Part shown: one piece after another, positions 19,770 to 20,986 of the stretch
Layout of the letters: every line of letters starts with the position of its first letter
Position numbering within the stretch: the first letter of the stretch is position 1
Source: a virus
Direction: 5' to 3' (one strand)
Length of the DNA: 20,986 bases
IMG/VR virus record: IMGVR_UViG_3300025138_013609
Location: 1 to 20,986 of that record
Notes under the pieces: generated by a model
What the model saw: only the letters and a program-made list of their open reading frames with translations
Databases searched by the model: none
Told to the model about the DNA's origin: nothing
Program-made: the position numbers and the translations under genes

Positions 19770-19914
19770 TGGTCTGATCGAAGCCCCGGCAACGGGGGAG
19801 GCCGGGCGGTTGCAGCCGCCCTGAACCGCGAGAATACAGCTCGCACCTACGGCTGGCGCGCCAGCCTTCAGTTCCCCCGGCCGCGTACGGCGGGGGTCGC
19901 GATAGGTGCCAATA
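19770..19914 (+). promoter_or_regulatory. Hairpin-rich leader between tail fibre and com-like genes
   Basis: This 145-base gap can form four hairpins in a row: CCCCG/CGGGG with a GCAA tetraloop (19784-19797), GGGCGG/CCGCCC (19804-19821), the perfect palindrome GGCTGGCGCGCCAGCC (19851-19866), and a 9-bp stem with one bulged G and a CGTA loop (19874-19896). None is followed by a T-run. The region should contain the promoter and any operator of the com-methyltransferase unit, but I see no convincing -35/-10 pair. The com Shine-Dalgarno sequence (AGG at 19904-19906) follows the last stem. Confidence 0.6.
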
Positions 19915-20109
19915 ATGAAAAAAGGTTTTAGGTGCGCGAATTGCACGGCTCTGCTATTCAAGGCTGAGCCCGGAGCGATCCGCGGCGTAGTCGAGATCAA
20001 GTGCCGCCGCTGTCGGCAACTTATTCAATTGAGGCCCGTGAGCCCTACCGTGAGCGCCAGAAGAGCAGCCTGCGGAGACGGGAATTGTGGCTGTTCATAC
20101 CAGAAATGA
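19915..20109 (+). CDS. com: Com-like zinc-finger translational regulator
   Basis: A 64-residue basic protein closely patterned on Mu Com. It starts MKKGFRCANCTALLFKAE, and zinc-binding cysteines C7, C10, C30 and C33 form two CxxC pairs (RCANC and KCRRC), followed by RQLIQLR. Three extra cysteines (53, 58, 60) lie near the end. In Mu, Com binds the mom message and opens an inhibitory stem-loop so that mom can be translated. Here the following gene is a methyltransferase whose start overlaps com. I chose ATG 19915 over GTG 19906 because it gives the Com-type N-terminus. Base composition is more A/T-rich than in the structural genes. Confidence 0.9.
   Translation: MKKGFRCANCTALLFKAEPGAIRGVVEIKCRRCRQLIQLRPVSPTVSARRAACGDGNCGCSYQK
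20063..20096 (+). promoter_or_regulatory. Stem-loop over the methyltransferase start, candidate Com-controlled translation switch
   Basis: GAGCAGCC (20063-20070) pairs with GGCTGTTC (20089-20096) as eight consecutive pairs, one of them G-U. The 18-base loop holds the Shine-Dalgarno sequence GGAG (20074-20077) and the first two bases of the GTG start, whose last G begins the stem. The structure lies inside com and resembles in design the inhibitory stem-loop that hides the GUG start of Mu mom until Com binds. The pairing is seen in sequence; Com binding is inferred. Confidence 0.6.
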
Positions 20110-20986
20110 AATCCGAGGAATCGGCCTTTGCTCAGGATATGGCGGGCTCGAACTCGGTGTCGAAATCGCCATCCCCGAGTATCGAGCTGTTTGTCACGTC
20201 GAGCGGGAAGCCCACGCCGCGGCCGCTCTCGTGGCGAGGATGGAAGACAAGGCCCTGGCTTCGGCACCTGTATGGGACGATCTGCGATCCTTCGACGGCA
20301 GAGCGTGGCGCGGAAAGGTTCATCTCATCACTGCCGGCTATCCCTGCCAGCCGTTCAGCAACGCCGGGAAGCGACGTGGCGCGGCCGATCCAAGGCACTT
20401 ATGGCCCGAAGTCGCTCGCATCATCGATGAAGTCAGACCACCCGCTGTCTTCGTCGAAAACGTCGAAGGCCACATCAATTTGGGATTTGCCGATGTCATT
20501 GGACAGCTTCGCGGCCTGGGCTACGAGCCAAAGGCGGGCCTGTTCTCGGCGAGAGAAGCAGGCGCTTCACACAGGCGCCGCCGACTCTTCATCTTGGCCT
20601 ACTCCGACGGCAGCCGACGGAGGTTACGTGCCGGATATTCTGATCGACCAGGACGGGATCAGTTTCGCAAAGCCTTGCTGGATCCAAACTGGTGGCGGCC
20701 AATATCCACTGATGAATGCGGCCCGCGCTTGGACAGCTATTTGGATGTTGATGGAGGCATTGGGTTTGGAGGCGATCCGAAAGGGATCTTCGCACCAGGT
20801 CCGGCTGAGCTTGCGGCTTGGCGGCGGGTCCTTTCTCAGCAACCTGCAGCCCAACCCGCTCTTCTACGAACTGATCATGGGCTGGCCGACGAACTGGAGC
20901 GCACCCGAGGGGCAGGTAACGGGGTTTGCAGTCTGGTTGCAGCGCTCGCGCTTACAACTCTGGATGCGGCTTTCAGCAATGAGTGA
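20087..20986 (+). CDS. C5-cytosine DNA methyltransferase
   Basis: The 299-residue protein carries the ordered C5 methyltransferase motifs: motif I LCSGYGG (residues 14-20, S-adenosylmethionine binding), motif IV GYPCQPFS with catalytic Cys87, motif VI ENVEG (124-128), motif VIII-like HRRRR (162-166), a short target-recognition region, and motif X GAGNGV (275-280). It would methylate phage DNA and so protect it against host restriction, replacing Mom of Mu. The GTG start at 20087 overlaps com by 23 bases and follows GGAG. The end is complete (TGA at 20984-20986). Third-codon GC is lower than in the structural genes, suggesting separate acquisition. The whole gene also lies under an open +1 frame (next entry). 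Confidence 0.92.
   Translation: MAVHTRNEIRGIGLCSGYGGLELGVEIAIPEYRAVCHVEREAHAAAALVARMEDKALASAPVWDDLRSFDGRAWRGKVHLITAGYPCQPFSNAGKRRGAADPRHLWPEVARIIDEVRPPAVFVENVEGHINLGFADVIGQLRGLGYEPKAGLFSAREAGASHRRRRLFILAYSDGSRRRLRAGYSDRPGRDQFRKALLDPNWWRPISTDECGPRLDSYLDVDGGIGFGGDPKGIFAPGPAELAAWRRVLSQQPAAQPALLRTDHGLADELERTRGAGNGVCSLVAALALTTLDAAFSNE
20106..20986 (+). CDS. Candidate overlapping gene in the +1 frame of the methyltransferase, partial at the window end
   Basis: Relative to the methyltransferase, the +1 frame has no stop from after the TAG at 19929-19931 to the window edge, over 1,050 bases. The first ATG in it is at 20106, just after the methyltransferase start and overlapping the com stop region; it has no good ribosome binding site. 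The translated product (293 residues so far) carries motif-like segments: RPLSWRGWKTRPW (39-51), SLPAIPASRSA, SWPTPTAADGG (163-173), MNAARAW (203-209), and NPLFYELIMGWPTNW (250-264). WPTPTA and NP.F...LMGWP.GW segments are familiar from phage methyltransferase C-terminal regions. This may be a real dual-coded protein; high GC alone can also create long shadow frames, so confidence is moderate. Confidence 0.42.
   Translation, partial: MKSEESAFAQDMAGSNSVSKSPSPSIELFVTSSGKPTPRPLSWRGWKTRPWLRHLYGTICDPSTAERGAERFISSLPAIPASRSATPGSDVARPIQGTYGPKSLASSMKSDHPLSSSKTSKATSIWDLPMSLDSFAAWATSQRRACSRREKQALHTGAADSSSWPTPTAADGGYVPDILIDQDGISFAKPCWIQTGGGQYPLMNAARAWTAIWMLMEALGLEAIRKGSSHQVRLSLRLGGGSFLSNLQPNPLFYELIMGWPTNWSAPEGQVTGFAVWLQRSRLQLWMRLSAMS

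Follow-up and report, generated by a model that had tools for sequence, protein, structure and literature searches.

Two superimposed reading frames in a Mu-like phage very probably encode the catalytic and DNA-recognition halves of one cytosine methyltransferase

Introduction

Do the 900 bases at this locus encode one protein or two? The window, the whole 20986-base virus record analysed here, belongs to a Mu-like phage and carries at its right end a C5 cytosine methyltransferase gene whose +1 frame also looked protein-coding when the letters alone were read. That sequence-only reading left two possibilities, a dual-coded pair of proteins or the origin of one methyltransferase family from another by a change of frame. 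We conclude that two proteins, the catalytic and the DNA-recognition halves of one cytosine methyltransferase, are very probably read from these 900 bases in two frames. The frame 0 product is referred to here as alpha and the +1 product as beta. The best explanation, to which we give a probability of about 0.85 in the absence of protein-level proof, is a two-polypeptide C5 methyltransferase of the M.EcoHK31I kind, in which alpha is the catalytic subunit and beta provides target recognition and motif IX.

A catalytic frame without motif IX

Frame 0 was open from the GTG at 20087 to a stop at 20984-20986 and gave a chain of 299 aa with GNGV at residues 277-280, as had been described. Its earlier description as a complete C5 methyltransferase held only in part. 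Motifs I, IV (PCQPFS), VI (ENV), VIII and X (GNGV) were all present, but motif IX was sought in the alpha chain without success and was found in the +1 frame instead. Alpha matched the Pfam family DNA_methylase (PF00145) over residues 10-176 with E=1.2e-30, and PHROG 363 over residues 5-291 with E=2.5e-51. The structure model of alpha had a pLDDT of 80.5 and a pTM of 0.83, and a Foldseek search with this model matched M.HaeIII and M.HhaI over the catalytic domain. The features of this frame are as follows.

20087..20986, + strand: alpha, catalytic subunit of a C5 cytosine methyltransferase, 299 aa, GTG start (motifs, Pfam, PHROG, model, Foldseek)
20342..20359, + strand: alpha motif IV, PCQPFS, with the catalytic Cys; the same bases give AIPASRS-type beta sequence in the +1 frame
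20915..20926, + strand: alpha motif X, GNGV (motif inspection)

In one relative (L018, about 2400-2500) the alpha N-terminus was out of frame with the remainder, through either a frameshift or an assembly error.

A second open frame and its family

The +1 frame was free of stops from 19968 to the window end, a distance of 1017 bases, in agreement with the earlier statement that it stayed open for more than 1 kb. All three peptides that had been quoted from it (SWRGWKTRPW, SWPTPTAADGG and a third) were found in its translation. The remaining frame had been called broken by stops, and 10 stops were indeed counted in the +2 frame of a near-identical locus, L003. Beta reaches its stop codon only past the end of the contig, and its exact end is not within the window. 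The window record and the contig that holds L003 (IMGVR_UViG_3300006654_000641, 99% identical) both stop exactly at the alpha stop codon; this shared endpoint is perhaps the trimmed right end of a Mu-like genome. The beta features are listed below.

20085..20986, + strand: beta, +1-frame protein of at least 300 aa, TTG start (MWLFIP...), no stop before the window end (PHROG 1008, stop avoidance, conservation)
20595..20609, + strand: beta WPTPT, start of the variable, putative target-recognition part (+1 frame translation)
20591..20852, + strand: region V, from alpha motif VIII to beta motif IX; beta is conserved here, and the alpha frame equals the non-coding +2 frame in conservation
20853..20897, + strand: motif IX (NPLFYELIMGWPTNW), beta frame (alignment with relatives)

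When the C-terminus of the window +1 frame was used as a single-sequence query, nothing was retrieved from named phages and only one near-identical contig was found. The beta family emerged only once relatives were used as queries. The window +1 frame matched PHROG 1008 ('DNA methyltransferase', 329 positions) with E=4.5e-12, and other betas matched it with values down to 1.6e-74. Judged by these profile matches, PHROG 1008 is the beta family. It is annotated as a methyltransferase, and the annotation is silent on members lying in the +1 frame of a catalytic gene. A lack of homologues other than trivial frame-shadows had been named beforehand as grounds for refuting the second protein; true homologues are present in this family.

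Structural evidence for beta was weak. No match was found in Pfam or NCBIfam, and the beta profile gave only chance matches against solved structures, so that no structure was matched by sequence. The AlphaFold2 model of beta alone was poor (pLDDT 58.5, pTM 0.25), which might be expected if the chain is half of a small domain. Because beta alone models poorly, it is assigned as a target-recognition domain on the grounds of motif IX, position and conservation.

Layout of the pair in relatives

Scans of viral contigs yielded 80 alpha relatives. Reading them in three frames revealed that the +1 frame terminates in WPTPT...LNPxWVEWLMGxPxGWTD across very different phages, AT-rich ones included. Three layouts were distinguished. 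In group A, which includes the window, beta spans alpha from the alpha start. In group B, the beta start is an ATG inside alpha, about 55-65 codons from the alpha start, and the chain often opens with ME...QLTLF..DTLAS.S. In group C, frame 0 holds motif IX, and the +1 ORF finishes just before it. Groups A and C each formed a clade in a tree of the catalytic part. The suggestion that one methyltransferase family came from another by frame change was thus partly right as history, with motif IX in the +1 frame in most relatives and in frame 0 in one clade.

The alignment of the beta C-terminus with the group C frame-0 motif IX, directly before motif X, was well supported (probability 94.6, E=6.6e-8). 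Beta motif IX also resembles LTPxExxRLQGFPDxW, the in-frame motif IX of canonical enzymes such as the Acidovorax one. In group C loci such as L027, L040 and L074, motif IX sits in frame 0 beside motif X, but no stop has entered the nested +1 frame. As the +1 frame is kept open there with motif IX in frame 0, beta would have a role beyond motif IX in that group.

Beta was in the +1 register of alpha in 14 of 14 annotated records and in 80 of 80 bacterial records. A free-standing beta was considered and rejected, since every one of these 80 bacterial loci, retrieved with the beta profile, has alpha in the -1 register. Both frames are already annotated in Escherichia phage K1G (ORF31/ORF30), Paenibacillus phage Tadhana (54/55) and Xanthomonas phage PhiXhv-28; the pair is present with beta unannotated in phage N15 (gene 58) and Lactobacillus phage Lc-Nu (ORF40). 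Selection maintains this arrangement in numerous other phages and also in bacterial genomes. We found no earlier description of this pair in phages in open-licence papers. On plasmid pRA03 of Roseicitreum antarcticum (L178, 3353-4102), the name 'DNA methyltransferase' has been given to the beta frame, with no annotation of the catalytic alpha frame. Downstream of the pair, a Paenibacillus bovis plasmid (L087, 2723-2917) has a further fragment resembling beta, in a different frame.

Stop codons are avoided in the +1 frame

Long open shadow frames are frequent in the window, which is rich in GC. The open +1 frame might therefore be no more than a by-product of composition or of the conservation of alpha. 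We compared observed +1 stops with an expectation obtained by shuffling codons among synonymous positions within each gene, which preserves the protein and the codon usage. Region M ran from motif IV to motif VIII and region V from motif VIII to motif IX. The sample was 48 non-redundant relatives, 21 loci of group A and 27 of group B.

Group A had no +1 stops in either region, against 42.2 expected in M and 42.3 in V (0 against 84 for both). Group B had 11 against 110.7 in M and 3 against 69.0 in V (14 against 180 together). Neither outside beta nor in the +2 frame was any stop depletion found in these two groups. Group C showed 0 against 38 in M and 2 against 22 in V. In 60 non-redundant bacterial loci the counts were 0 against 202 in M and 0 against 119 in V; these loci were retrieved with the beta profile, and this ascertainment helps their depletion somewhat. 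Group A was itself defined by the absence of stops in its N region, which makes that zero partly circular. When alpha sequences of the group were used in a later scan, 68 further loci were obtained, and these likewise had zero +1 stops between motifs I and IV. For L003 alone, 5.0 stops were expected and none was observed, and not one of 300 shuffles was stop-free.

Five canonical C5 methyltransferases showed no depletion, with observed and expected +1 stops of 8/7.7, 20/21.4, 24/23.0, 31/30.4 and 25/23.8. A shadow of alpha would need equal depletion outside beta or in such canonical genes, and none was seen. The synonymous shuffles still expected many stops with protein and codon usage held constant, the depletion was confined to the beta span and the +1 frame, and it held in genes of 42-50% GC. 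Together with the conservation of four-fold sites only within the overlap, described below, these results make an origin by composition or alpha conservation scarcely tenable. Stops in the +1 frame of close relatives would have spoken against a second protein; they are avoided in close and distant relatives alike.

A C5 methyltransferase gene on a Picosynechococcus plasmid (L184, 1189-2275) had no +1 stops against 3.2 expected, and a second ORF overlaps it.

Selection acts in both frames

Four-fold-degenerate sites of alpha changed about half as often inside the overlap. For group B pairs of 55-70% identity, the fraction of four-fold sites that differed fell from.70 upstream of the overlap to.31 and.26 within it, and was.68 downstream. 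For group A the values were.39,.38 and.39 inside the overlap and.71 after beta. The low value in the N region of group A (39%) is expected if beta reaches the alpha start there.

In region V the fastest codon position was the first of alpha, which is the wobble position of beta. Identity between relatives in this region was 33% for alpha, 32% for the non-coding +2 frame and 44% for beta, and beta was more alike than alpha in 88-94% of pairs, the figure being 94% for the pairs to which these identities refer. The window and its relative L004 behaved similarly, with identities of 48% (beta), 32% (alpha) and 36% (+2). Overlapping genes under purifying selection should avoid stops and change less at synonymous sites within the overlap only, and both signs were present here. 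Our computation showed both frames to be under selection as proteins, and it placed motif IX and a conserved variable part in beta. Constraint limited to the methyltransferase frame had also been listed as a possible refutation, and constraint was seen in both. All the refuting tests listed beforehand were run and none refuted the dual-coded pair, which is supported.

Beta might instead be a real, translated overlapping protein that is not a methyltransferase subunit, such as a regulator or inhibitor of the methyltransferase, or one with an unrelated phage function. Beta alone has no known fold and no family match, and group C retains the nested frame though motif IX has moved to alpha, which would suit such a role. 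Against it, the end of beta is motif IX, a motif missing from alpha and present in frame in canonical C5 methyltransferases; beta was never found without alpha; and the variable region of alpha itself is unconserved. We consider a role outside the enzyme unlikely, and beta as a subunit of the methyltransferase remains the preferred reading.

Overlapping start codons

The start of both frames overlaps the end of an upstream gene.

19906..20109, + strand: Com-like zinc-ribbon protein of the Mu Com family (Zn_ribbon_Com PF10122, E=1.1e-7)
20074..20077, + strand: GGAG, Shine-Dalgarno-like, which could serve both starts
20085..20089, + strand: overlapping start codons TTGTG, TTG for beta and GTG for alpha (ATGTG in most relatives)

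The last codons of com overlap the alpha and beta starts at 20085-20109, so that about 20 bases are read in three forward frames. A similar upstream C-terminus (CGFSYQRR) was seen at the equivalent place in L004.

The +1 gene most likely starts at the TTG at 20085. The ATG at 20106, which overlaps the com stop (ATGA), was dropped as a beta start; it is absent in L004, whereas the NTG-TGG coding for MW..P is conserved. Group A loci carry NTGTGG, in which an NTG for beta is followed two bases later by the alpha GTG. This hexamer was present in 55 of the 68 later-scan loci (49 of them ATGTGG), and in 31 of the 55 the GTG was the sole start for alpha. Most loci without it carry ATGACATGG, which also gives a beta start, MTW..P. 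The conservation of the start-codon overlap is an observation within group A. One group A relative (L217, near 1990) has ATGTAG in place of ATGTGG, so that beta would stop at codon two; a natural loss of beta or a different start is possible there.

These starts also bear on whether programmed frameshifting could link N-terminal alpha sequence to C-terminal beta sequence in a single chain. The distribution of motifs would permit this, with I-VIII in frame 0 and the variable part and motif IX in +1, and the fusion would be a methyltransferase without motif X. That loss of motif X counts against it. Moreover, well ahead of any point where such a shift could occur, the +1 frame is already open and under constraint, and beta has conserved starts of its own, the overlapping NTGTGG in group A and the internal ATG in group B. 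We regard a fused chain as very unlikely. Both this explanation and that of a frame shadow were tested and rejected on the stop counts, the four-fold sites, the canonical controls and the start conservation.

Ambiguous starts of this type have been studied by Kohl and co-workers, who found with E. coli reporters that translation can begin in both frames at AUGUG; at one spacing both were used (PMC9841429). The pqiA and tamA genes of E. coli use such starts with short alternative frames, that of pqiA being a 15-aa peptide whose function is not known (PMC9841429). These AUGUG and GUGUG sites and rnpA-rpmH of Thermus resemble the present locus in that two adjacent starts lead to two frames (PMC9841429). 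Unlike those of pqiA and tamA, both products here are conserved and some 300 aa long. The site in the window is TTGTG, and its dual initiation is inferred; the sites tested in that work were AUGUG and GUGUG, and its text makes no mention of UUGUG (PMC9841429).

Discussion

In the mechanism that we propose, alpha would bind the methyl donor and carry the catalytic motifs I-VIII and the closing motif X, and beta would carry the variable target-recognition part and motif IX. Ribosomes on one mRNA would probably choose between the TTG of beta and the GTG of alpha behind a single Shine-Dalgarno-like GGAG. Alpha and beta would then probably form a heterodimer that methylates phage or host DNA. That beta is translated, that a heterodimer forms, and what activity, target site and purpose it has are inferences, made without mass spectrometry, ribosome profiling or activity data. 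Taking the loci together, we think it likely, with some reserve, that they represent a conserved family of fully superimposed gene pairs, with complementary subunits of ~300 aa, NTGTG starts, ends a few codons apart and a motif IX that hopped between frames in evolution.

In phage Mu, the mom modification gene follows com. The present locus is similar in that a Com zinc-ribbon gene lies directly upstream of a DNA modification gene and overlaps it, and differs in that the modification gene is a C5 methyltransferase pair and not mom. Because the locus directly follows com, in the position of mom in phage Mu, it likely serves to shield phage DNA from restriction.

If the dual initiation is real, the ratio of two enzyme subunits would be set by the ribosome's pick between overlapping codons, and this would be, to our knowledge, the longest natural use of an ambiguous start-codon choice. 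The clade of the window makes dual initiation at overlapping starts directly testable with two functional products. PHROG 1008, a large annotated family, is explained as the second frame of methyltransferase genes, and a common phage and prophage gene turns out in many cases to be half-annotated, one of its two overlapping frames having been left out. The pairs also offer a large and deep alignment for the study of two proteins from one DNA segment, as well as natural split methyltransferases with the specificity subunit as a separate chain.

The M.EcoHK31I beta gene, reportedly described by Lee in 1995, is said to lie inside the alpha gene in another frame. M.EcoHK31I, which recognizes YGGCCR, consists of two polypeptides, the larger with motifs I-VIII and X and the smaller with motif IX alone (PMC3404938). 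The division of motifs is the same here. Two differences were noted. The target-recognition region of M.EcoHK31I is predicted in the larger subunit (PMC3404938), whereas the conserved variable region here is in beta, and in the clade of the window beta covers the whole of alpha and shares its start site. The likeness drawn here is one of layout and not a claim of homology. The motifs of M.AquI are also split between alpha and beta, with motif IX on the smaller polypeptide (PMC3404938). There, IX and X are both in the small subunit, whereas X is in alpha here. Streptomyces phage Vash (L086, 2486-3542) looks AquI-like: its gp33 lies in the +1 frame relative to gp32 and has WPTPT-like sequence with motifs IX and X. 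The open frame of gp33 reaches back inside gp32.
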